From Haematococcus lacustris (taxonomy: Eukaryota; Chlorophyta; Chlorophyceae; Chlamydomonadales; Haematococcaceae), in NCBI GenBank assembly GCA_030144725.1, contig JASKMD010000020.1, forward strand, positions 558,001 through 622,000: DNA of 64,000 bases, given 5' to 3'. Each line of letters starts with the position of its first letter. Within the stretch, counting starts at the first letter, position 1. The position numbers and the translations under genes are program-made. The notes beneath the pieces are model-generated. The model was not told the origin of the DNA, made no database searches, and saw only the letters and a list, made by a program, of their open reading frames with translations. Shown piece by piece: positions 350 through 60,858 of this stretch.

Positions 350-770
350 TCACTGTGACACAGGCTGCTGGGCCAGGGCCTTGGGTGCTTGGTCCCGCAG
401 CTTCTTGTAGCTCTGGTGAAGGTACTCCCTGCCTAGGGCTGGTGCCCCTTGCTCGGCCTGACCACCTGCACTACTCCACTGGGCATTATGGGGCCTCCCC
501 TGCCCGCTGGAGGTTGAGAGCTGAGTTGCAGTCTCTGTCCACCCATCTGGGGTGGCCTGGTCCAGCTTGGGGCGCCACATGAGGCACTGCACTGGCGCCT
601 CAAACCGCTGGCTTCAGGCTGACCGCAGCAAGCGGTCCTCAACCTGACACGCTCGGGGTTTGCAGCCAGCAGGCCTGGTGGGCTTGCTGCGCTTCAGCAA
701 CTTCTTGCAGGGCTGGGCACGGTTCACATCTGAGCTGACCCGGCTGGTGTGGGACAGACACCTTGCCAGA
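350..770 (-). pseudogene. Fanzor copy A, C-terminal fragment
   Basis: Decayed remnant of a Fanzor (eukaryotic TnpB-like RNA-guided nuclease). Read on the minus strand, residues around 760-700 resemble the stretch after the RuvC-II glutamate (SRVSSDV, then CKKLLKRSKPTRPAGCK). A frame change then leads to the region before the zinc finger (LLRSAWSLKP), and 430-350 gives the C-terminal helix (REYLHQSYKKLRDQAPK), which matches GKEYQQRYKLVNDRLPK of copy H. The RuvC-II motif VDEFRTS is itself lost (SHTSRVSS remains), and RuvC-III is not readable in one frame. A detached 3' end of a related element sits directly upstream (771-1010), apparently inserted next to the degraded RuvC-II site. Not functional. 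Confidence 0.6.
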
Positions 771-1010
771 CCAACAACACTCATTCAACAAGGGACAACA
801 TGTCGGCCTGTGGGTAATCTCACTCCGCTACTAGTTGTAGCATCCTCGGTCGCACCCTTGACGACTGCAAACCCCACGTCCGGTGGCACGTTCCGGGGGC
901 AAACCCCCCGACCACTGGGCTCCTCATCAAAACTAACAGCTTTACGCTTACATGGCTACCAGCCCGTTGCACTAGCAAACACTAGTGAACTAGCTAGGAG
1001 CCCTAGAGTG
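771..1010 (-). mobile_element. Fanzor-family 3' end, 5'-truncated copy
   Basis: This matches, in reverse orientation, the non-coding stretch that follows the stop codon of Fanzor copy H (26335-26551) and copies J and K. It contains the conserved terminal hairpin region (around 771-815), the segment around 841-960 ending in the conserved TTTACGCTTA block, and the CTAG-rich distal part (960-1010). No Fanzor coding sequence is attached at its 5' side, so it is a 5'-truncated insertion or a remnant. Confidence 0.75.
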
Positions 1011-1903
1011 AGCCATGGCTCTAGGGCTCGGGTAGTGATGGAGCTCCACGAGGAAGCTTCATTATTGCTGCAGGTTTATTCATCGCTGCTGCTTTTGGCG
1101 ATACCTGCAAGCACATAGGGCCACGACATATGCTTAGTGTGCGGGGCAAAGGTGTGTTGGACAACAAGTGCGGGGCTGTGTGCTAGGCTGTGTGCGGGGC
1201 AACAAGTGCTAAGTGCGGGGCAACAAGTGCTAAGTGCGGGGCAACAAGTGCTAAGTGCGGGGCAACAAGTGCTAAGTGCGGGGCAACAAGTGCTAAGTGC
1301 GGGGCAACAAGTGCTAAGTGCGGGGCAACAAGTGCTAAGTGCGGGGCAACAAGTGCTAAGTGCGGGGCAACAAGTGCTAAGTGCGGGGCAACAAGTGCTA
1401 AGTGCGGGGCAACAAGTGCTAAGTGCGGGGCAACAAGTGCTAAGTGCGGGGCAACAAGTGCTAAGTGCGGGGCAACAAGTGCTAACTGCGGGGCTAGGGC
1501 AAGGGTCTCACCTTTCAGAGAGGCCTGGCCGTTTGCCATTCTACGGGGCCGTGTACCATTGTTTACGAATTGCGCGGTCACGAATTAGCGCGTCGATCTG
1601 CGAACACAAGCACAAGCAATTGTTGCGGGGCTGCTGCTATAGTGCGGGGCTGCTGCTATAGTGCGGGGCTGCTGCTATAGTGCGGGGCTGCTGCTATAGT
1701 GCGGGGCTGCTGCTATAGTGCGGGGCTTACCTTAACCCGCGGTGGCAGCTTGGGGCCCGAGCAGTAATCAGAGCAGGCCGCCACGCCTGCTCCAACTAAG
1801 ATGGCAATCTGTGGCAAACGGAGCCTTTTCATAGTGTCCGTTGTCACACTGTGCGCTGTCCTTTGACAGCCGTTGCATTTGCTGACGCGTCCTTAGCTGC
1901 TAG
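1011..1903. other. Gene-free stretch holding two minisatellites
   Basis: Apart from the 21-bp array (1197-1487) there is a second array at about 1628-1727, five units of a 19-bp sequence (TGCGGGGCTGCTGCTATAG). Both share the TGCGGGG core, which suggests a common origin. I see no exon here. Confidence 0.6.
1197..1487. repeat. 21-bp minisatellite, about 14 units
   Basis: Near-perfect head-to-tail array of a 21-bp unit (GCGGGGCAACAAGTGCTAAGT). Because 21 is a multiple of three, three frames stay open (a GQQVLSA heptad on plus, an ALVAPHL heptad on minus). That openness is a by-product of unit length, not evidence of a gene. Confidence 0.95.
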
Positions 1904-3250
1904 TTAGCTGCTGACAGTTGAGAACTGCAGGGGAGACCTCAGCGGAGTCATCAGCGGAGACAGCTTACAGTGCGGCGTAGCGGAGCGAGACCATGCATTG
2001 GCTAGAGTTGGGACCACCTTGCCAGGCAGCCTGTCTGTTGGCCTGGCGCTGCTGGGCCTCTCCATCACCTTGCGGTAGGCCTGCAGCACGGCGTTGGGCC
2101 CCCACCCACCCCGCATGCCGATGCCAACGTTGCTCAAGAACACCACCAGCTGCTTGCGTGTCCCCCACCACTGCTAAGACACATCAGCTGCCTCTTCCTT
2201 CAGCTGCATGGCACATAAGACACAAAATGCACATAGTGGTCACACGGGGGGCATTCTTCAGCCTCTGGCCCTGCCTCCCCCCCTCTGCCATTTGCACACC
2301 CACCTTCCCGCAAAGCGATCCAGGACCCTCTGTAGCGCCGCACAGCCTGAGCTTGTGTCCTGCCCGTTGGGGTGCAGGTACTTCTCCCACACTGCATTCC
2401 AGGTGGCCAGGGTGACGGCCACATGCTGCTACATAGCCACCAGGGAGGTGCCTGCTGGGCTGGCTGCTGCCAGGTGCTGCAGTTGGAGCTTGATGTTGTC
2501 ACTCCACCGCGCAGTACTGGGGCGGGCCTGGGTCAAGCCACTGTCATGCAGCTGGCTACTGGTCAGCTTGCACGAGCAGAAGCTGTTCAGTATGCCCTCC
2601 TCATCCCACACTCCCGAGGCTGCGCTTACTACCTGGATGGCGCCAGGGTCCAACCCCATACCCATCTGTGTGGCTCAGCTTGTCAGCCAGGACGCTTGTC
2701 AGCCAGGCCCTTGCCTATGTCAGCTGATGGGCGCTTGCTGCTGCTGCCAGAGGAGCCTGCTGCTGGGCTGCTGCTGCCAGAGGGGTCAGAGGGGTCTGCA
2801 GCTCCCTGGCATTTGGGGAAGGGTGCATGGGTGGTGCACACACACACACACACGGACCCCATCAGTGAGGATGTGCCTATCAAACACAACCCCCTTGCTA
2901 GCCAGCTTTACTTTCGTGAAGACTCTGTTCCAATGCATATAAACGACATCCTTGGCTACAAAGGCTGCATCAGTGGACTTGTCCAGGCCTAGCTCCCTGC
3001 GTAACCCATGCAGGGCCCGGCTATCTAAACTGATGAAATGGGCACTGGCCCAGTCATGGGGGTGAGGATCAAGGGTGGGAGGGAGGCTGGCGCCCTGGGA
3101 CCCTTGCCCCTGCCCTTGCCTCTGCCCTTGGGTAAGGGTGTGGGGTCCTGCCATCTCTCCAGGCACCTGTTTCATGTGGATGGCGCAAACATCCGGCGGT
3201 ACAGCGGACCGACACAGCCTAAGCTGAGGGGAACATCCAAACATGCCAGC
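1904..3250 (-). pseudogene. Fanzor copy B, degraded N-terminal and central part
   Basis: Minus-strand relic. Reading down from 3060: the pre-RuvC region (HFISLDSRALHGLRRELGL, then VKLASKGVVFDRHILTDGV), a low-complexity Ser/Gly linker (SKRPSADIGKGLADKR), the RuvC-I site (GLDPGAIQVVSAASG) near 2650, the helical linker (LHDSGLTQARPSTARWSDNI), and the stretch preceding RuvC-II (FLSNVGIGMRGGWGPNAVLQ, then RLPGKVV) near 2000-2140. The sequence then diverges, so the RuvC-II glutamate and RuvC-III are absent. Several frame changes are needed to follow the homology. A short CA run (2836-2853) lies inside. Copies E and G share the same subfamily features. Confidence 0.7.
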
Positions 3251-13941: not shown

Positions 13942-15387
13942 TTGACGATGTTGTTTTCTATGGCTCACAAAAATAGACAGCCCAGCCCCAAGCACAGCTT
14001 CGCGCACATCGTGCACACCGACGGAGTCGCCCTCAGCGTGATGTTCCTGCGGCCCAAGCCTGCCGCTCCACCCGCAGACCCGCCGCGGATGGGCAGGCAC
14101 ATGGGCGCAGTCAACCCGCTGGCCCACCTCGACGCGGAGTGGCTGGGCGTGGACCCCGGCAAAACAAACATGGCAACAGTGGCGCACGAGGAGCGCAGCG
14201 CTGCCGGCACAGTGGTGTCCGTGTGGCAGAGATCTCTAACCGCCGGGCAGTACTACCGCGACAGCGGCATCACACGGCAAGCCCAGGCAACCAAGAAGTG
14301 GCTGGCCGAGGTGAAGACGCAGCTCACAGCCCTGTCACAGGTCAGCAGCAAGCCCAGCTCGCTGGCCTCGTACCGGCGGTTCGCCGACACCGTCCTAGCG
14401 ACGTACGACGCCATGTGGGCCGAGGTCTCCAAGCCGCGCTGGGCCAACGCCAAGTTCAGGCTGTTCTGTGGCAAGCAGCGCGTGGTGGCAAGGTTCTGGT
14501 CCAAGGTAAGGCCTATTATTAGTAGGCCTATAAGCTAGGGAGTAGCCAATCAAAGTCGACAAGTTGTTGTTGTTGCTGCTACTGCTAAACCTGACCTTAC
14601 ACATGTGTGCCTTGTGTGTTGTACCATGTGTGGCTGCAGCTCATCAAACAGGCCAAGCAGCGGTGGCCGGACCGTGTCCTGGCACTGGCCTATGGGGCTG
14701 CTTGCTTCAGTGGCAGCGGCAGCATTGGCTGCAGGGGTGTCCCGGTCAGCCAGATGCTGAAGGAGGCGCTGAGGCAGTTCCCAGCAGGGCGAGTGGTGAT
14801 GGTAGATGAGTTCCGCACCAGCCGGGTCAGCTCAGCCTACAGCCACCCCAGTGAGGCCCTCCCTGGGCAGCCCGCCTGCGTCCTTCAGGTGAGAGGGTCA
14901 GTGGGAGAGGGTCAGGGTAGTGCTGGGAGGTGGTGGAGTCAAGGTGGCTGGGTAGGGTCAAGATTGGGAAGGTTAGGAAAAATCTTACAAATGTGCATTG
15001 CCTCATGTGTCCATGCACGTGGCTGCGGCCAGTGTACAGCGAGGCGAAGCGTTCCCAAGTCAGGGGCTTGATGTGCTCAACAAGCAACAACATCAGGTAA
15101 GCAATGGCCTGACATTGCACATGTGCATGGCCGCAACATATCCCACATGAAGTGACACATGACATGGCACATGACTTGACTTCATGCATTTCCCACATCC
15201 ATGTGCAGGTTCTATGACCGGGACGTCTCAGCCGCGCTGTGCAGTCGGCCCAGGCCCACGCCCCACTGAGCTGTGCTACTGGGATGGCCGCCCAGCCATG
15301 CCAAAGCCAGGCCGGCCAGGCCAGGAGTGGGTGTACTTGCGTGACAAGGCCCTGCTGCGTAAGTGGCGGCGCAAGTGGCGGCGATAG
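13942..15387 (+). CDS. Fanzor copy D, TnpB-like RNA-guided nuclease (N-terminus not found)
   Basis: Fanzor proteins are eukaryotic homologues of IS200/IS605 TnpB: RuvC-fold nucleases guided by an RNA encoded at the element's 3' end. Exons: ~13942-14505, 14640-14888, ~15033-15096 and 15209-15387. The borders are clear except the third acceptor, whose phase does not join cleanly to exon 2. All three RuvC motifs are present: WLGVDPGKTNMATV (RuvC-I Asp), VVMVDEFRTSRVSS (RuvC-II Glu) and FYDRDVSAAL (RuvC-III Asp). HIVHTDGVALSVMFLRP before RuvC-I matches FARRVETDGVSLSVHFVRS in copy H, which has ~480 further N-terminal residues; I could not find these here. The zinc-finger region keeps one clear Cys (MCSTSNNIRFYDRD). 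The C-terminus is very basic (LLRKWRRKWRR). It belongs to a different subfamily from copies H, J and K. Possibly intact, possibly truncated. Confidence 0.75.
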
Positions 15388-22551: not shown

Positions 22552-23411
22552 TATATCAGGCAGGGCAGACACGGGCAGTAGGCCATGCAGATATATCATT
22601 AAAATTGTGCCTGAGACGCTTAGCTTCGCTTGCTAAGTGCCACAGCGGTTCTGGTCACCCGAATGTGTGGTCATCTTGGTCACGAGCTGCCTTCCTATAC
22701 CCTCGGTCATATTGTATCAGGCTCTTCACGCCAGGCAAGCTGGTCTACAAAGGGTGTGGGATAGATAGGCAGATCCTCACTAACCAGGTCCCAGCAGCAG
22801 GCCCCTCTGGCAGCAGCAGCGGCAGCAGCAGCAAGCGCCCATCAGCTGACATAGGCAAAGGCCTGGCTGACAAGCGGGCGTCCCAGCCACACAGATGGGT
22901 ATGGGTTGGACCCCGGCGCCATCCAGGCAGTAAGCGCAGCCTCGGGGCGTGGGATGATATGGCATACAGGACAGCTTGTACATATGCAAGCTGACCAGTG
23001 GCCAGCTGCATGACAGTGGCTTGACCCAGGCCCGCCCCAGCACTGCGCGGTGGAATGACAACATCAAGCTCCAACTGCAGCACCTGGCAGCAGCCAGCCC
23101 AGCAGGCACCTACCTGGTGGCTATGTAGCAGCATGTGGCCGTCACCCTGGCCACCTGGAATGCAGTGTGGGAGGAGTACCTGCACCCCAAGTGAGCAGGA
23201 CAGAAGCTCAGGCTGTACGACGCTACAGAGGGTCCTGGATCGCTTTTCCGGGAAGGTGGGCGTGCAAATGGCAGAGGGGGGGAGGCAGGGCCAGAGGCCA
23301 ACAGACAAGCTGCCTGGCAAAGTGGTGACAGTGGAAAAGTTCCGCACCAGCCGGGTCAGCTTAGCTGTGAGCAGTCCCCAGCCCTGCAAGAGGTTTGACC
23401 ATATCAGGTAA
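22552..23411 (+). pseudogene. Fanzor copy G, degraded
   Basis: Follows the copy B protein through several frames: KLVYKGCGIDRQILTNQV, Ser/Gly linker and KRPSADIGKGLADKR, remnants of RuvC-I, LHDSGLTQARPSTARWNDN, WNAVWEEYLHPK, and a degraded RuvC-II end (PGKVVTVEKFRTSRVS, where the catalytic DE reads EK). In-frame stops interrupt it. RuvC-III is absent: the sequence leaves homology near 23411, just upstream of element H. Confidence 0.75.
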
Positions 23412-23599
23412 CACAGCCCCTAGTTGTTATCATAGATATCAAGGACAATGGCCAGCCAGGAGCAACGTTATGTTCTTAGCTAGCCTTGCTAATGTGACAT
23501 CCCAGCCCATACACCTCACCTTGTTTGCTCCGTATCAGTATCTTACTTGATACCTGCAGTGCCTTGAGGGGCACAGAGTCGTAAGTTTGGGCAAACCAG

Positions 23600-23648
23600 C
23601 CAAACTTAACTCATTCAATATGGAACAACATGTCTGACTGTGGGTAAT
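23600..23648 (-). mobile_element. Older Fanzor 3' end split by element H (left half)
   Basis: Contains the conserved terminal block (ACTCATTCAA, GGAACAACATGT, GTGGGTAAT) in minus orientation. Continuity resumes at 26569-26665 (CTACTG..., then GTTGAAGCGTCCTCGATTGC and later conserved text), so element H interrupted it. Confidence 0.75.
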
Positions 23649-23854
23649 TGGCAATGTATATAGGCAATGTATATAGGCAAGTGCTACTGCTATGCTGTGA
23701 ATTTTATTGCAAGAACTTGGGGTGTTGTAATGGATGGTGTAATGGATTGTGTAATGGATCTCATTTTCGCCCCACTCCGGTTGCCGGCACTCCGGTTGAA
23801 TGGCGACATGATGCCCGCCCTAGCACGCTTGGATGGTGTTGCTAAATCCCTGAG

Positions 23855-26334
23855 ATGCCGCCGAAAAGTAAACGCAAGCGCCCCGTCTCTCCCGCACAGA
23901 GTGCAGCCGGTAAGCCACAAAGCTCGACGGAAGGCTAGTCCCCCCTCCCGACGCGACGCAGTGTGGTCCACGCGACATTCCGCCTCCGCGCATCAAGTTC
24001 TGCGCGTGTGCTGTGCCGTCCCATGTAATGCAGGTGCCAGTGGCAGCGGGCAGCAAGAGGATGAGGGGCAGGGGCAGGGTGAGCAGGAAGTGATCGCAGA
24101 GCGGCGCCAGGTTATCAAGGCAGCCTTTCGCGGCCTTGTGGAGGCAGCGCAGCCTGACCTGAGCCCAGAGGAAGTCGACGCAGTGGTGGCACAGGCCAAC
24201 CAGCGCATGACCATGGGCAGCATGCAGTGTTGCCTGGCAGCGGTCATGTCGCTGAACATGCTGCTCCAGTGCTTCCTAGGTCAGCCCACACCAGGCTTCC
24301 CAGCAGCAGGTCCAGCCCCATGCCCCCCTCCCCAACCTGACCCAGCCTGCCCTCCCTACTCTCACCCCCGCCTCCCCACACGCAGCTCCCCCCGCAGTGC
24401 AGCCCCCCCAGCCCAGCTGCCCCCCCCAGTTCAGTTGGACGTCGAAGACCCCAGCCTGCTGCCACAGATCAAGGCTGCCATGGACCTGCTCACCAATGCA
24501 AGTGTGCAGGAGCACCTGATGCGTGGCCCCCACCACAGCCGCATCAGGCTGCTGCCCGGTGAGGTGGCCGTGTTCGAGCAGCCCAGCAGTGCCTGGCCAG
24601 TTGCCAAGCTTCAGGAGCTGGACCAGGTGCACCTGCAAGGCGACAACAACTCCCTCAATGCCAACGCCACCAAAATCATCACAAGCATCACAGAGTTCTA
24701 CCGTCACCCGCAGCGCTTCATCAGCTTGTGGGCCAAGGCAGTCGGGGTGGTGGGGGGGGGGTTCAGCAAGGAGGCACGAAGGCACTTCCTCCAACTGGTG
24801 CTAGGTAGGCTTGACTACAGCCAGCCAGACCAGGAGCACAAGTGGCGTTTGCCACCCAATAGTGTGCTACGGCAGGATGGGTGGCGGGAAGAGGTAGTCT
24901 GGCACAGGGGGCTGCTGGGGCTGCCGGCTGAGTGGGAGGCGGGAGTAGAGCCGATAGGGAAGGGGGGTGCAGGCTGGCTGCCCATAGAGAACAGGGTGCG
25001 GTACGTCATGTTTCTGAATCGCTGCCTAGAGGCCTGGCAGATAGCCCCCCATGCCCAACCCCATGCCAACAGCCGCCGCCGCCGCACCTGCCCGCGCCCC
25101 TTCACCATGCTCCCTATGGTGGGGGTGCGAGCCAGGCACTTTGTCATCGATGACAGAGTGTTGCGTGGCCTGCTGGCTGACCTGGGTCAGGACACCCTGA
25201 CACGGGCCAGGTTTGAGGCTGACAGCCTGCCCCACTGGCAGCGGTTCATACAGTACAGCCAGCTGCAGAACAGTGGGTGGGACTTTGCCCGTAGGGTGGA
25301 GACGGATGGGGTTAGCCTTAGTGTTCACTTTGTGCGCAGCCAGGCAGTCCATGAGCCAGTGGAGCTGCCCTTCATAGGGCGTGAGCTCACAGCCACGAGC
25401 GACTACAGCCCAGCCACCCACATAGCCGTGGGGGTGGACCCCGGTGTCACCCAGGCCATCAAGGCTGCGCATGCACAGCGGGACCTAGTCACAGGTCAGG
25501 TGGTCAGGCAGTGGGAGTGGGAGCTGACCAAGGGGCAGCTTAAGCATGACAGCGGGCTTACCAAAGCCAAACAGGACACAGCCCGTTGGTCAGCTGCCAT
25601 CCAGCCACAGCTGCAGCAGCTGTCAGATGCCACCCCAGCTGGCACCACCCTGGACGCCCTCCATGCCCACATCCTGGCCCTCAAGGCCACCTGGGCCCAG
25701 GCCCAGCACGGATCCCAGGCCTGACAGGCTTGTGATCGTGGACGAGTTCCGCACCAGCCGCGTCAGCTCCTCTGTGCATGCCCGCCAGCCATGTGAGCTG
25801 CACCTGCCGGCCAACCAGCCTAGGCCCGCAGACTGGGTACCCCCAGCAGGCCAGGTCAACCACCGGCTGTTGCGCCCAGCCTGGAGCGTGCGTCACGCTA
25901 AGTGTGTGCGGGGCCTGAAGTGGTGCCATGAGGTGCCGCCCAACCCCCCTCCCCCTCCCCCTCCCCCAGCCCCCCTTGCTCAGGACCCCCCTGCCCCAGC
26001 CCAGGAGCCACCACCTCCACCTCCCCCTGCCCAGGACCAGCCCCCTGCCCAGCCCCTACCTGGCCCAGTGCCACCACCCCAGGCCCCCCCATGGGGCAGG
26101 TGGCTGGACCGGGACACCAACCCCTGCCTGAACTTCCAACGCATTGGGGAGAGCAAGCAGCGCCCCTTGGAGCTGTGCAGCTGGACTGACCTGAGGGCCC
26201 TGCCCCCCGTTGGCAAGGAGTACCAGCAGCGCTACAAGCTGGTCAATGACCGGCTGCCCAAGGTCAGGCAGAGGCTGCACCGGGCTGCAGAGTACCGGCG
26301 GGGCATTGATGGTCGGGCCCGCAACAATGCGTAG
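23855..26334 (+). pseudogene. Fanzor copy H gene, N-terminus complete, internal deletion before RuvC-II
   Basis: Exon 1 (23855-23909) encodes a basic, nuclear-signal-like start, MPPKSKRKRPVSPAQSAA. A GT...AG intron (23910-24033) joins in phase to exon 2 at 24034 (GASGSGQQEDEGQ). A further optional intron may span about 24279-24430. The long frame continues through TMLPMVGVRARHFVIDDRVL, FARRVETDGVSLSVHF and RuvC-I (IAVGVDPGVTQAIKAA) to a stop at 25724. RuvC-II (VIVDEFRTSRVSSSV) and RuvC-III (WLDRDTNPCLNFQRIG) lie in another frame ending at 26334. By comparison with copy J, the segment between RuvC-I and RuvC-II is deleted at about 25700 and the frame is shifted, so one intact nuclease cannot be made unless an unseen splice bypasses the junction. 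A ~65-residue Pro-rich insert splits the zinc-finger region from RuvC-III. Confidence 0.85.
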
Positions 26335-26551
26335 GCCCTAGTAGTTTGCACTGGCTGGTAGCCATGTAAGCGTAAAGCTGTTAGTTTTGATGATGTGCCC
26401 AGTGGTCAGGGGGTTTGCCCCAGGAACGTGCCATCGACTTGGGGTTTGTGTTCATCAAGGGTGCGACCGAGGATGCTACAACTGGTTTGTAGTAGCTGAG
26501 TGAGATTACCCACAGGCCGACATGTTGTTCCTTGTTGAATGAGTTTTGTTG
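26335..26551 (+). ncRNA. Candidate Fanzor guide RNA / right-end region
   Basis: Non-coding stretch from the stop codon to the element end, conserved in copies J and K and in several detached ends. TnpB and Fanzor guide RNAs (omegaRNA/fRNA) come from exactly this position. It ends in a hairpin whose arms are CAGGCCAACA and TGTTGGCCTG in the best-preserved copy (50309-50352). That this is a guide scaffold is inference; it could equally be the recognition end for mobilisation. Confidence 0.5.
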
Positions 26552-26568
26552 GTCTGACTGTGGGTAAT

Positions 26569-27388
26569 CTACTGGTGTGGGTAAATGGGTAAAAGCTACT
26601 CAAATCAAGTTGAAGCGTCCTCGATTGCACCCTTGATGACTACAAACCCCACACCGGTGGCTCTTTCCCCCTAGACTACTGTGCACCCCATCTGAACTAA
26701 CAGCTTCATGTTTGACAGGCTAACAAACCTCGTGTCCCTCACTAGGGCCTCCATTTGGGTCGGCCCATGAGTGGCCAATAGCGGGACTAACCACATGGTG
26801 TTAAGGGGTATACCCAATGCATCAGTGCATACCACCTAATTCATTGCCTGACCACGAGACCTATAGTGTAGGGTCGGCATGACAAACATGCGTTGGTTGT
26901 GAGCTGATGACAGCATATCTGAGGTATAGGGAAAAATATAGGCGTCCTTATTTTCTCATAATGGGGGCATAATAGGGGCATTATAAGGGGTCAACCGCGC
27001 CGGTCCTCAGAGCTTACAATCGCACGCTTACAAAAACGCGATGGCCTGATGTGACCCTGCAGACGTCGATGGCCTAGCGAGTTGCACGAAATGAATGAAA
27101 GAAATCAATCGCTGCACCATTCCAATGCCAAGCCAAGCATGAAGCCAAGAATGGCAACATCACATGAAGGGCAACATGCCCTGGTGCTGGCACACATAGC
27201 TGCTTATTGGCAGAGAGGAAGGCCATGGCATCAGGGCAGACTCCCTGGGGGACGTATGGCCATGGGGCGGGGGAAGGGTACAGGGGCCGCATGACTAGGG
27301 CCAGGCTGTATTGAACATGGCGCGTTGAAGCCCCCGATAGGAGCGGAGACTGCCTGCGGGCTGTTTAGGACATAGAAGGACATAGCAT
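26569..27388. other. Remnant of older Fanzor 3' end, then gene-free spacer
   Basis: 26569-26665 continues the older 3' end split by element H. From 26666 to 27388 I see no exon, RNA gene or repeat family that I can support. Confidence 0.4.
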
Positions 27389-28332
27389 AGAACATAGCAG
27401 CGGCAGCAGCAGTGGCAACAACGGCAACACTGGCAGCAGCAGAAGCTGCAGCAGCAGCAACAACATCAGCAGCATCAGCAGCAGCAGTGGCTACAGCGGC
27501 AACACCGGCAGCAGCAGCAGCGGTGGCAGCAGCAGCAACTCGCGCGGCAGCAGCAGCAGCAACAACAGCAGGGGCAACAATGGCAACACTGGCAGCAGCA
27601 GAAGCTGCAGCAGCAGCAACAGCATCAGCGGCAGTGGCTACAGCGGCAACACTGGCAGCAGCGACAGCAGCGGCAACACCGGCAGCAGCGGCAACACCGG
27701 CAGCAGCGGCAACACCGGCAGCTGCAGCAGCGGTGGCAGCAGCAGCAGCAGCAGCTCGCGCGGCAGCAGCAGCAATAGCAGCAACAGCAGGGGCAACAAC
27801 GGCAACACTGGCAGCAGCAGAAGCTGCAGCAGCAGCAACAGCATCATCAGCAGCAGCGACAGTGGCTACAGCGGCAACACCGGACGCAGCAGCAGCGGTG
27901 GCAGCAGCAGCAGCAACTCGCGCGGCAGCAGCAGCAGCAGTGGCAGCAGGGGCAACAACGGCAACACTGGCAGCAGCAGAAGCTACAGCAGCAGCAACAG
28001 CATCAGCGGCAGCAGCGGCAGTGGCTACAGCGGCAACACTGGCAGCAGCGACAGCAACGGCAACACCGGCAGCAGCGGCAACACCGGCAGCAGCGGCAAC
28101 ACCGGCAGTTGCAGCAGCGGTGGCAGCAGCAGCAGCAGCAGCTCGCGCGGCAGCAGCAGCAGCAACAGCAGGGGCAACACAGCAACACTAGCAGCAGCAG
28201 AAGCTGCAGCAGCATCAGCAGCAACAGCAGCAAGCGGCAGTGGCTACAGCGGCAACACTGGCAGCAGCGACAGCAGTGGCAACACCGGCGTCAGCAGCAG
28301 CGATGGCAGCAACAGCAGCAGCGGGATTGCAC
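27389..28332. repeat. CAG/GCAACA-rich higher-order repeat
   Basis: Nearly 950 bp of imperfect GCA/GCAACA/GGCAGC repeats with a larger periodicity: the block GGCAACACTGGCAGCAGCAG recurs at about 27426, 27584, 27801 and 27959. The 259-residue Ala/Thr frame starting at 27412 and the poly-Leu and poly-Cys frames on the other strand are repeat translations. Confidence 0.85.
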
Positions 28333-30213: not shown

Positions 30214-31740
30214 TTATCTACTACTTAAGAAAGGGGGGCACACTACTGCGCCCCAGCAGGCTGCTGCTGCTGTAGCTGGGCCTTGGATGGCTTGTCTCGC
30301 AGCCGCTTGTAGCCTAGGCCTTGGTACTCCTTGCCCTTGGCTGGCAGAGCTGCCTGCTCTGGCCACCAGCACAGCTCCAGTGGGCGCCACCTGCCCAATG
30401 CGCTGCATGTTGAGCGCTGCATTGCAGTCCCTGTCCAGCCACCTGCCTGGCTGTGGTGGGAGCTTGACTTTAGCAGCCTTGCCCTTGGCCTTGCCTTTGC
30501 CCTTCAATGGGCTGGTTGGGCTCAGCGGCCTGCTCAGCCTTGGTGCGCTTGCTGCGCTTGGCTGGCGGGGGAGTGCTGGGTCCTGGCTCTGGGGCTGCTG
30601 GCTGTGTGGCTGCCCGGCTGCTGCATGGGTGCTGTGGGGGCTTGTGGGGGACCACTACTGAGCACCACATCAGGCCCCACACTGGCTGGTCACGCTGCTG
30701 GCTCCAGGCTGGACGCAGCAGGCGGTGTTCCACCTGTCCTGCCGGGGGCTTGCAGTCTGCAGGCCTGGTGGGCTCCTCATGGTCCAGCTCCTCCTCACAG
30801 GGTTGCTGGCCATTCACTGCTGAGCTGACCCGGGTGGTGCGGTGCTCAGCCACTAGCACCACCCTGCCCCGCCGCTGGTCTGAGCCCCTGGGCCTGCACA
30901 CCACCTTGCAGCAGGCACGCAGCACTGCATCAGCTCCCCACCCTCACCCAGCGCCAATGGTAGCTGCACCAAAGAACACTACCAGCTGCTTGGTAAGCCC
31001 ATGGCGCTCCATGGACAACTCAGCCATCTCCTCCTCCAACTGCAGCCATGCACACGAGAAACACACGGTGGCTGGCATGGTGGCATCAGGTTAGGCATGG
31101 CACAGTTAACCACTCTTTCACTTCATGTTGAACCTCTCAGTCCCTTACCCTCCCTCCCACCCACCCTCACCTTCTGGATCGGAGCCAGCCACCGCTGGGT
31201 GGTGCGGCGGGCATTGTTAAGGCCACTGGCCTGCGTCACCTGGCTCTTGGTCAGCTTCCACCAGCGGAGCTGGCCTGGCTCCTGGTCCCTGAGGCTGCAC
31301 TGATTGCCTGTGTGACGCCGGGGTCGATGCCCACCCCAATCTGTGTGGCTGGGTTGAACACGAAGTCACGCTGCTCAGCTATGCGCTTGCCGATGCGGGG
31401 GAGTCCCAGCACATGGGCTGCTACTGCTTCTGCTCTTGGGCGGCTGTTGCTGCTGGCAGCTGGGGGTGGTGGGAAGGAGGGGGGGAAGGGGGCGTGTGTA
31501 GTGCACATTCACGCTGACACCGTTCGTCTCTAATGTCTTCTCAAACTCAACACCACGGTTGGCCAGCTTGCCTGTGGTGAACCATGTGTCCCAGTGCTGG
31601 CTCCTGGCTGGCTCTGTGGTGAAGGCTTATTGTGTCTCCTTGATTAGCCCCAGCTGCTTGCACACCCCATGCGACACCTTGCTGTCCAGCTTGATGAGAA
31701 GTGCATCCCTACCTTGGCCATGGGGGTGAGGGTGAAAGGG
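30214..31740 (-). pseudogene. Fanzor copy I
   Basis: Minus-strand copy readable from the pre-RuvC region to the C-terminus but broken. From 31720: LLIKLDSKVSHGVCKQLGL, then an in-frame stop (KETQ*AFTTE), then TTGKLANRGVEFEKTLETNG, RuvC-I GVGIDPGVTQAISAASG near 31340, a frame change, KSQVTQASGLNNARRTTQRW, WGADAVLRACCKVV, RuvC-II as LVAEHRTTRVSSAV (Glu kept, VDEF changed to VAEH), a zinc-finger-side block (LLRPAWSQQRDQPVWGLMWC), a Lys-rich linker, a frame change and RuvC-III GRWLDRDCNAALNMQRIG. Introns could hide some frame changes, but the internal stop argues for a pseudogene. Its RuvC-III motif is the closest here to the TnpB consensus RDxNAAxN. Confidence 0.75.
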
Positions 31741-32717
31741 GGAGCGCAGGTGAGGATCCGGGGCCCACCCCTACGATCCGGGGCCCACCCCTACCCCTAC
31801 GCTTTGGCTGCCCTGGCGTTGGTGGGGTGGAGGGCTGCTGCCACTGCTCCAGGCACCGGCACACATGCACGCCACGGCGAATGTGGCGGGGCAGGGGCAG
31901 TGTGTCCTAAGATTGTTTGCAAGTAATGCATGCCCTAACCTGCTCGCCACTGCCGACACCGCTGATTAATGCAAGTGCAACCCGTTAATTGAGCTGCAAC
32001 CAGCAATGAGCAGACGACCTCGTCATCCTCACCTCGTGCCTCTCTGACTTCAAGATCCAGGCGCATAAGCTCACAGAGTTCTCCACATGGAGCAGCTGCA
32101 AGTGTCAGCCAGCAAAATCTAGGTGGCAGGCATACTGTACCAAACATTGGTCACTTTCCCCGGCAAATGCCTTACACTCACCCAGATTGTAAGGAGGCAG
32201 GTAAAAGAAACCGCTGTCGTAGGTTCAATACCCGTGTCGTGGGATGGCATTACTTCAGGCTCCTTATATAGCTGCTGGCAACGGTGTAGGGTATGAACAT
32301 GTGCACCGCCTTCAGTCACAATTGTGATATTGGCAACTGCACTCTCCTGGTAGGCTGCCTGCCAATCTTAGTGGCAACAAGGCCCATGTGACGCAAGAGT
32401 CGCATTGGAGTAAACCAGACTGGTATCTACCGAGCGGGGGACCAACCCAGATATGATCTTATAACGGTTACCAACTAGAGCCGTGAGACCAAGTCGGGCA
32501 GCTTACACAGCTTTGGGGGACCTCCTACAGAGCACAGAGTACCGTCGAGTTCACGGTATCAGGTCACTGACCAGGCAAACAGCTACTGCAACCTAGGCAG
32601 CAGCCTCACATTTATGCAGCCTCACTCTACATGGGACATGACCCATAACAAAACCAAAATCACGGCAGCACCTACTGCATGCCCCTATCGAGTTTATACT
32701 GGACAAATGAAAGCTGC
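31741..32717. other. Spacer between Fanzor I and RBCS
   Basis: Should include the RBCS 3' UTR at its right edge. No other gene recognised. A direct duplication CGGGGCCCACCCCTAC (about 31758-31796) is present. Confidence 0.35.
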
Positions 32718-50296: not shown

Positions 50297-50310
50297 CTGT
50301 GTCATATCAG

Positions 50311-50392
50311 GCCAACAAAACTCATTCAACAAGGAACAACATGTTGGCCTGTGGGTAATCTCACTCAGCTACTACAAACAAGTTGTAGCATC
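50311..50392 (-). mobile_element. 82-bp detached Fanzor 3' end with 14-bp target-site duplication
   Basis: The flanks are an exact direct repeat, CTGTGTCATATCAG (50297-50310 and 50393-50406). The insert is the terminal 82 bp of the Fanzor 3' region in minus orientation, so it is a 5'-truncated copy that keeps the 3' end. The hairpin arms CAGGCCAACA and TGTTGGCCTG are perfect here, using CAG from the target. Confidence 0.88.
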
Positions 50393-57383: not shown

Positions 57384-57429
57384 CTGATTTGCACCACTTT
57401 GCAATACTTAACTAAGTGGTGCAAATCAG
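57384..57429. repeat. Perfect 16-bp inverted repeat at the 3' edge of Fanzor J
   Basis: CTGATTTGCACCACTT and AAGTGGTGCAAATCAG with a 14-nt spacer, immediately next to the element end. A diverged half (CTGATTTGTACCACTT) sits next to copy K at about 60199-60214, so both copies landed in, or were duplicated with, related flanking DNA. Confidence 0.85.
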
Positions 57430-58440
57430 GCCAACAAAACTCATTCAACAAGGAACAACATGTTGGGCTGTGGGTAATCTCACTCAGCTACTACAAACCA
57501 GTTGTGGTAGCCTCGATCGCACCCTAGATGGACACAAACCCCAAGTCGATGGCACGTTCCTGGGGCAAACCCCCTGACCACTGGGCACCTCATCAAAACT
57601 AACAGCTTTACGCTTATATGGCTAACAGCCTGTGCAAACTACTAGGGCCTACGCATTGTTGCGGGCCCGACCATCAATGCCCCGCCGGTACTCTGCAGCC
57701 CGGTGCAGCCTCTGCCTGACCTTGGGCAGCCGGTCATTGACCAGCTTGTAGCGCTGCTGGTACTCCTTGCCAACGGGGGGCAGGGCCCTCAGGTCAGTCC
57801 AGCTGCACAGCTCCAAGGGGCGCTGCTTGCTCTCCCCAATGCGTTGGAAGTTCAGGCAGGGGTTGGTGTCCCGGTCCAGCCACCTGCCCCATGGGGGGGC
57901 CTGGGGTGGTGGCACTGGGCCAGGTAGGGGCTGGGCAGGGGGCTGGTCCTGGGCAGGGGGAGGTGGAGGTGGTGGCTCCTGGGCTGGGGCAGGGGGGTCC
58001 TGAGCAAGGGGGGCTGGGGGAGGGGGAGGGGGAGGGGGGTTGGGCGGCACCTCATGGCACCATTTCAGGCCCCGCACACACTTAGCGTGACGCACGCTCC
58101 AGGCTGGGCGCAACAGCCGGTGGTTGACCTGGCCTGCTGGGGGTACCCAGTCTGCGGGCCTAGGGCGGTCATCTGGCAGGTGCAGCTCACAAGGCTGGCG
58201 GGCATGCACAGAGGAGCTGACACGGGTGGTGCGGAACTCATCCACGATCACAAGCCTGTCAAGCCTGGGATCCGTGCTGGGCCTGCTGGGCTGCTCCACC
58301 ACCTTGCGAAACCCCGCCCGCACCGCCCCTGCCTTCCACCCACCCTGGCTGAAGTTGCCCGCTCCCAGGAACACCGCCACTCCCCTCTCCTGGTGGTAGT
58401 GTTGGCGTGACACCCACTTCATCCCATTCACCACCTGCAG
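57430..58440 (-). pseudogene. Fanzor copy J, C-terminal exon plus 3' region
   Basis: One long exon begins at a good acceptor (CCTGCAG|GTGGTGAATGGGATG, about 58434) and runs to a stop at 57649. It encodes QHYHQERGVAVFLGAGNFSQ, then RKVVEQPSRPSTDPRLDRLV, RuvC-II IVDEFRTTRVSSSV, HRLLRPAWSVRHAKCVRGLK (zinc-finger side), a Pro-rich insert, and RuvC-III WLDRDTNPCLNFQRIGESKQ. It is nearly identical to the end of copy H but keeps the segment H has lost. The conserved 3' region follows (57648-57430). Exons carrying the N-terminus and RuvC-I are missing: directly upstream of the acceptor is the AGGTC satellite. So this copy is 5'-truncated or was interrupted by satellite growth in its intron. Confidence 0.8.
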
Positions 58441-60234: not shown

Positions 60235-60858
60235 GGCCAACAAAACTCATTCAACAAGGAACAACATGTTGGGCTGTGGGTAATCTCACTCCGCTACAAT
60301 CATATTGAAGCATCCTCGGTCGCACCCTTGATGACCACAACCCCCACACCGATGGCACGTTCCAGGGGCAAACCCCCTGACCACTGGGCACCTCATCAAA
60401 ACTAACAGCTTGAATGCTTGTAAGGCTAACAGCCTGTGCAAACTACTAGGGCCTACGCATTGTTGCGGGCCCGACCATCAATGCCCCGCCGGTACTCTGC
60501 AGCCCGGTGCAGCCTCTGCCTGACCTTGGGCAGCCGGTCATTGACCAGCTTGTAGCGCTGCTGGTACTCCTTGCCAACGGGGGGCAGGGCCCTCAGGTCA
60601 GTCCAGCTGCACAGCTCCAAGGGGCGCTGCTTGCTCTCCCCAATGCGTTGGAAGTTCAGGCAGGGGTTGGTGTCCCGGTCCAGCCACCTGCCCCATGGGG
60701 GGGCCTGGGGTGGTGGCACTGGGCCAGGTAGGGGCTGGGCAGGGGGCTGGTCCTGGGCAGGGGGAGGTGGAGGTGGTGGCTCCTGGGCTGGGGCAGGGGG
60801 GTCCTGAGCAAGGGGGGCTGGGGGAGGGGGAGGGGGAGGGGGGTTGGGCGGCACCTGG
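60235..60858 (-). pseudogene. Fanzor copy K, 3' fragment
   Basis: Essentially identical to the last ~400 bp of the J exon (Pro-rich insert, RuvC-III WLDRDTNPCLNFQRIG, C-terminal helix, stop at 60453) plus the conserved 3' region (60452-60235). It is cut off upstream within the Pro-rich insert at about 60856. The extra upstream reading (MLVQRAGSHIPAQ) comes from a neighbouring sequence related to the distal 3' region. Non-functional. Confidence 0.85.

Follow-up and report, generated by a model that had tools for sequence, protein, structure and literature searches.

Fanzors are eukaryotic RNA-guided nucleases, and the way in which they move bears on what they are for. The locus described here, from the green alga Haematococcus lacustris, raises the question of how a gene of this kind is copied from place to place: it carries a Fanzor-like element bordered on both sides by the same short sequence. 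The window, i.e. the whole stretch of DNA analysed, comprises 64,000 nucleotides of contig JASKMD010000020.1 (positions 558,001 to 622,000, forward strand). A first-pass annotation had described an exact 16-17 bp repeat at both borders of the element, and flanks that become continuous, as part of an older Fanzor 3' end, once the element is removed. Both descriptions are borne out. The 17-mer GTCTGACTGTGGGTAAT is found exactly at 23632-23648 and at 26552-26568, and when the flanks are brought together around a single copy of this repeat, they form a continuous older 3' module of the same family. As this older module lies on the minus strand, the focal element is nested in it in inverted orientation. 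The features of the insertion are as follows:

23632-23648, plus strand: 5' copy of the target duplication, GTCTG followed by ACTGTGGGTAAT, by exact match
23649-26556, plus strand: focal element, whose 3' end at the CTG of 26554-26556 is common to nearly all copies seen
26552-26568, plus strand: 3' copy of the target duplication, overlapping the 3' terminus of the element by its first 5 nt
23597-23648, minus strand: end of the older 3' module, interrupted by the insertion, 85% identical to the tail
26569-26740, minus strand: remainder of the older 3' module, across the insertion

The first five nucleotides of the 17-mer, GTCTG, coincide with the 3' terminus of the focal element, and the unambiguous flank is thus only the 12 nt of ACTGTGGGTAAT; counted by the CTG convention used for the family, the focal duplication is 15 bp. 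A search with the 17-mer at up to three mismatches gave 8 matches, where 0.11 were expected, and the six matches other than the border pair all fall in family tails, among them the tail of the focal element itself, at 26505. Pieces of this locus, flanks included, are found again 2-3 Mb away on the contig, rearranged by inversions and deletions (loci L033, L002 and L035), with L033 corresponding to the 5' flank and element and L002 to the 3' flank. The possibility that the repeat pair belongs to a longer segmental duplication, which had been named as a potential refutation, is therefore right in that the locus is partly duplicated on its contig, but such a duplication copies the whole locus and does not generate the repeat pair. 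A long CAG/GCA-rich repeat lies at 27352-28190, downstream of the older copy. Scans of the window with Rfam at the gathering threshold and for tRNAs gave no match.

The coding part of the element is organized as follows:

23855-23909, plus strand: predicted exon 1 of the Fanzor-like gene, starting with ATG, from gene model P0004 and reading of the sequence
23910-24033, plus strand: predicted intron 1 (GTAAG...GCAG), kept in the genomic copies examined
24034-25694, plus strand: predicted exon 2, Fanzor-like coding sequence up to the missing piece, with RuvC-I as VGVDPGV
25695-25707, plus strand: internal-deletion junction with a frame shift, where the late intron and the codons matching P0003 residues 572-657 are absent
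25708-26334, plus strand: 3' part of the coding sequence, with VDEFRTS (taken as RuvC-II) and LDRDTN (RuvC-III)

Although the element had been called complete, it is not so in coding terms: 86 codons are gone, the frame changes between 25694 and 25708, and the frame of exon 2 ends at a stop codon at 25722-25724. Another copy, L027, has about 630 bp where the focal copy is deleted. The four best matches of the focal protein among H. lacustris records are 87-94% identical to it. The motif order D...[TS][TS]...RD, given as the definition of Fanzor and TnpB proteins in the relevant part of PMC3627910, is present in the sequence as GVDPGV, VDEFRT[ST]RV and LDRDTN. The homology to TnpB/Cas12f was reached via relatives, with the focal query leading to P0108 (1e-62) and this in turn to P0135, which matches the TnpB/Cas12f TNB domain (Pfam entry: PF07282) at 27.6 bits (cut-off 26.3). 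The focal protein family itself gave no Fanzor or TnpB match in Pfam and no relevant match in PDB, and a structure prediction for the protein was unusable (mean pLDDT 33.7). At the position expected for the first cysteine pair of the C4 zinc finger the protein has SSSV in place of CxxC; this SSSV is nearly invariant (at least 90%) across 11 aligned relatives, with only scattered cysteines further on. Since the first zinc-finger cysteine pair is absent, we name the protein Fanzor-like rather than a canonical Fanzor.

The copies of this family are unified by their 3' end. Across 30 loci similar to the last 234 bases of the element, nearly all copies end alike at ...GAGTTTTGTTGGYCTG and diverge beyond this point, and comparison of the same 30 loci revealed no homopolymer or simple-repeat tail there. 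The last three bases are CTG in 42 of 43 full tails and CTA in the other one. A 30-base tail pattern, allowed up to 2 mismatches, occurs 2,125 times (1,085 + 1,040) in the 308-Mb assembly, and the reversed pattern, used as a control, does not occur at all. The conserved 3' region and two further copies in the window are:

26350-26556, plus strand: conserved 207-bp 3' module, present in Fanzor and in non-coding copies
26513-26556, plus strand: terminal hairpin predicted by folding, CAGGCCAACA ... TGTTGGYCTG, flush with the 3' end
767-2014, minus strand: tail copy of the family 2 type, with a duplication of CTG + 8 nt
50308-50392, minus strand: 85-bp 5'-truncated copy, flanked by a duplication of CTG + 11 nt (ATATGACACAG)

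The hairpin, obtained by folding the tail consensus as well as the focal 207-nt module, is predicted to have a 10-bp stem. In an alignment of 40 sequences of the module, 0 of 41 predicted pairs were changed on both sides, and covariation thus supports the fold neither way. The module is likely to be a cis signal for copying, and possibly also serves as the guide-RNA scaffold. Non-coding copies, which we call family 2, keep the 207-bp module and, by gene-model match, the first exons of the Fanzor transcript. On their 5' side these copies match gene model P0031 over up to residues 1-63, and the model fuses this stretch to a Fanzor body. From this sequence match we take family 2 to be an internally deleted Fanzor derivative, and P0031 may be mis-annotated.

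In contrast to this uniform 3' end, the 5' ends are ragged. Longer copies begin at differing points or bear copy-specific sequence ahead of the shared body, and the nested L019 copy is 42 bp long. Measured back from the 3' end, the start of the 5' duplication copy lies at a distance of anywhere from 56 to 2,920 bp, a spread that target-primed reverse transcription would lead one to expect. A target duplication was detected at 24 of 53 distinct 3' ends and at 4 of 405 shifted-flank controls, in a search extending up to 3.2 kb upstream and giving weight to a preceding CTG. When the flank alone was used, within 1.5 kb, at least 10 exact nucleotides recurred at 17 of 52 ends versus 2 of 391 controls, and the extension of the duplication by CTG, which is unselected in this search, was seen in 18 of 21 real cases versus 1 of 21 in the control. 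Ends with the same surrounding 50-60 bases were counted once throughout, and the controls used the same flanks shifted. The remaining 29 of the 53 ends gave no duplication, and for some of these the 5' boundary lies beyond the stretch examined. Further tail copies, 20 in number and picked by position among 100 listed exact tail matches as a set without a control, yielded five more duplications within 1.2 kb; the pooled count is 28 of 73 ends. The duplication consists of CTG plus 7-14 nt, which amounts to 10-16 nt with the CTG included, and to 17 in the nested L019 copy. Duplications in the family are therefore variable rather than of one constant short length.

The duplicated bases are preceded by a sharply defined motif. 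G-N-CTG is present at 25 of the 25 sites used, these being the 28 duplications less three: L019 and L048, which sit inside other tails, and L006, whose last bases are CTA. The first pair of the motif is GC at 15 sites, GT at 5, GA at 3 and GG at 2 (background of GC 0.10, p 1.8e-9). The focal site, GTCTG, fits the motif and stands outside the 25 sites, its end having been removed as identical to L001. In L019 and L048 the insertion point of the truncated copy is precisely another copy's 3' end; as the end of the element recreates the GNCTG target, tandem nesting is possible.

Elements of LINE/SINE pairs, which are mobilized by target-primed reverse transcription, have a fixed 3' end, a short terminal match to the target, target duplications of variable length, 5' truncation, and a 3' module that is also carried by non-coding derivatives. 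All these features are present in the Haematococcus family, which differs from such pairs in keeping its introns, in having no poly-A or repeat tail, and in that a LINE with its tail was not found (abundant LINE, 12 loci). The shared 3' end, the 5' truncation, the variable duplications and a fixed cut motif to which the final three bases of the element correspond are together what target-primed reverse transcription predicts. Hence, the reading that we favour, with confidence about evenly divided for and against, is that the family multiplies through target-primed reverse transcription of its unspliced RNA by an enzyme supplied in trans. Transcription would proceed through the gene to the hairpin and give an RNA ending in CUG. 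The bottom strand would then be nicked at the GNCTG motif seen at the insertion sites, and the freed 3' end would pair with the terminal CUG. Reverse transcription from the 3' end would often halt early, giving rise to the observed 5' truncation, and a second nick 7-14 nt further would produce the observed duplication. With an unspliced template the introns would stay, as they do in the copies examined.

Taken by themselves, the duplications are no proof of an RNA intermediate. Several observations speak against target-primed reverse transcription: introns are retained, in contrast to ordinary LINE retrocopies, there is no homopolymer or simple-repeat tail, 29 of the 53 ends and one pair of loci (L035/L002) are without a duplication, no reverse transcriptase with the tail was found among the elements searched, the genome has Helitron replication genes, and a near-identical anatomy has been read in print as rolling-circle transposition. 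Retained introns are compatible with a DNA intermediate and also with a reverse transcriptase able to copy unspliced RNA. A precedent for the latter might be the Penelope-like elements, which are reported in part of a study of Adineta vaga (PMC3846280) to keep introns and to move intron-containing genes. Judged against that part of the study, the Haematococcus family resembles these elements in intron retention, target duplications, 5' truncation and proposed action in trans, and differs in that LTR-like terminal repeats are absent among the repeats listed in the focal element.

The main rival to target-primed reverse transcription, and a serious one even if we hold it to be somewhat improbable, is one-ended rolling-circle transposition of the Helitron2 type. 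Here a HUH enzyme would act at the fixed 3' end, and copying would run past or stop short of the 5' end; the duplications would arise by a staggered join, which is left unexplained. The same anatomy has been published for another green alga. In the portion of Bao and Jurka (2013; PMC3627910) that concerns Chlamydomonas, Fanzor1 families with 5' truncation and 7-19 bp duplications are read as one-ended Helitron2 elements, on the grounds that in ends and target they are similar to real Helitrons. The first-pass annotation credited known Fanzor carriers with short duplications or none, which is wrong in view of the 7-19 bp reported there. As described in the same portion, the C. reinhardtii families CRe-1, CRe-2 and CRe-3 share with the Haematococcus family a multi-exon Fanzor gene, a fixed 3' end, frequent 5' truncation, internal deletions, and variable duplications (7-19 bp in CRe) beside a fixed short target motif. 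They differ in the motif itself, which is TTTT in the CRe families and GNCTG here; in Haematococcus, moreover, copies with a near-intact 5' end carry duplications too, and the tails number about two thousand. The Haematococcus repeat family is real and a variant of the published kind.

Several features agree with the rolling-circle reading. A DNA intermediate would account for the kept introns, the predicted hairpin flush with the 3' end corresponds to the 3' hairpin expected of Helitron2, and Helitron replication genes are present in the genome, with 18 matches of which 7 are strong. The seven strong RepHel loci are L073-L079, and three that share a contig have an identity of about 99.8% or more across 3.45 kb. 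The family tail was found in one of ten loci with Helitron matches (L080, a Fanzor copy beside Rep sequence); this counts only weakly against the rolling-circle reading, as the stretches stop short of the Helitron ends. The 2013 reading also leaves the target duplications unexplained, and the same part of PMC3627910 notes that transposons of such an enzyme class normally create none.

A further point concerns the copies that retain their 5' end. In Chlamydomonas, copies reaching the consensus 5' end are without duplications, so an intact 5' end with a duplication is contrary to the Helitron2 pattern. In Haematococcus the focal copy and L032 (the latter internally deleted) combine a near-intact 5' end with a duplication. 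Two further cases of this kind, each pieced together from two loci that contain one end apiece, are L047/L017, with a duplication of GCTATGTA (8 nt) + CTG, and L034/L003, with one of AAGTTCCAGG (10 nt) + CTG that lies 229 bp before the shared 5' start. As the flank of L034/L003 is the same as that of L032, the two perhaps represent one insertion that was later duplicated. L035/L002, with a 5' end near full length and no duplication, conforms to the Helitron2 pattern.

A classical LINE-type retroposition in trans of spliced, processed mRNA would likewise account for the duplications, the truncation and the shared 3' end, and we consider it very unlikely. For Fanzor intron 1 there are 34 unspliced records, of which the focal copy supplies two (the window and L031), and 0 spliced ones; the late Fanzor intron is unspliced in 7 and spliced in 0, and intron 1 of family 2 unspliced in 14 versus 0 spliced, all three judged at the 5' splice site. 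This sample is biased, since the loci were chosen through similarity to intron-containing queries. Eight apparently spliced matches for family-2 intron 2 proved to be unspliced sequence aligned with mismatches. Intronless copies, which had been predicted, were therefore not seen in the loci examined for these three introns, and the retention of introns argues against the copying of spliced mRNA. The internal deletions were considered as splicing products and rejected as such, with GT-AG borders, at best placement, at 0 of 17 junctions (the junction of L034 is also that of L047, and L032, L040 and L050 fit poorly). The late intron consists of a GACCT repeat array (L027, 150-960) that differs in length among copies.

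The abundant LINE of the genome ends in CATCATC, a 3' end different from that of the family, and within the 12 loci examined is without the family tail, contrary to the expectation of a LINE with the same tail. Searching 80 element loci with probes from one LINE and two LTR elements revealed LINE sequence in two, namely L049, upstream of the Fanzor 5' end, and L096, over 29 residues; the remaining matches were to the Fanzor portions of the probes. The reverse transcriptase located beside Fanzor sequence in gene models P0010 and P0088 was considered as a partner and discarded: it is part of the abundant LINE, with its other 3' end, and the adjacency is taken as that of chance neighbours. This LINE (L061-L072) is very abundant, with listed copies 93-100% identical to a 180-residue query among the 150 scored of 1,395 candidates, and with many ORFs near 1,180 aa. 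The genome as a whole contains 4,540 RVT_1 candidates and nine weak endonuclease matches. The original proposal of target-primed reverse transcription by a LINE-type enzyme thus stands as regards variable duplications, truncation and a single 3' end, but it is unlikely that a LINE worked on spliced mRNA, given the lack, in the loci examined, of intronless copies, of the tail on the abundant LINE, and of GT-AG junctions.

A DNA transposon moving by cut and paste, with inverted termini and repeats that flank it by chance, or a segmental duplication, might be suggested by the 52-nt inverted match between 23597-23648 and 26505-26556 and by the partial duplication of the locus, and can be dismissed as hardly credible, as the inverted match is to the older nested copy and is no element terminus, and the variation in duplication length and in 5' end refutes both.

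With some 2,000 tails, a sharp GNCTG motif and duplications on near-intact-5' copies, this family makes the notion of an RNA-copied guide-RNA nuclease gene testable. Among the titles listed for the literature on Fanzor, Helitron2 and LINEs, represented mostly by titles and the openings of abstracts, none claims a retrotransposed Fanzor. An uncharacterized Fanzor-coding repeat is given in part of PMC12633428 as the most abundant repeat in Auxenochlorella. The Fanzor 'ghost' loci, described in a section of Saito et al. (2023; PMC10432273) as bounded by inverted repeats, are comparable to family 2 in that the latter retains an end and the presumed guide-RNA region, and differ from it in that family 2 has the shared 3' end only. 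A more speculative extension, which we think doubtful, is that GNCTG-primed insertion would abut the guide-RNA scaffold to a new flank, so that each copy would gain a guide against its own empty allele beside a GNCTG motif; these elements would then be self-programming homing retroposons of volvocalean algae that keep their introns.

The window also contains other Fanzor-like remnants, falling into two protein groups, at 400-750, 2012-3082, 30282-31906, 57427-58437 and 60237-60856 on the minus strand and at 13996-14508 and 22883-23393 on the plus strand. These were recovered by tblastn with P0003 and P0129, the ends of those at 57427-58437 and 60237-60856 being set separately.
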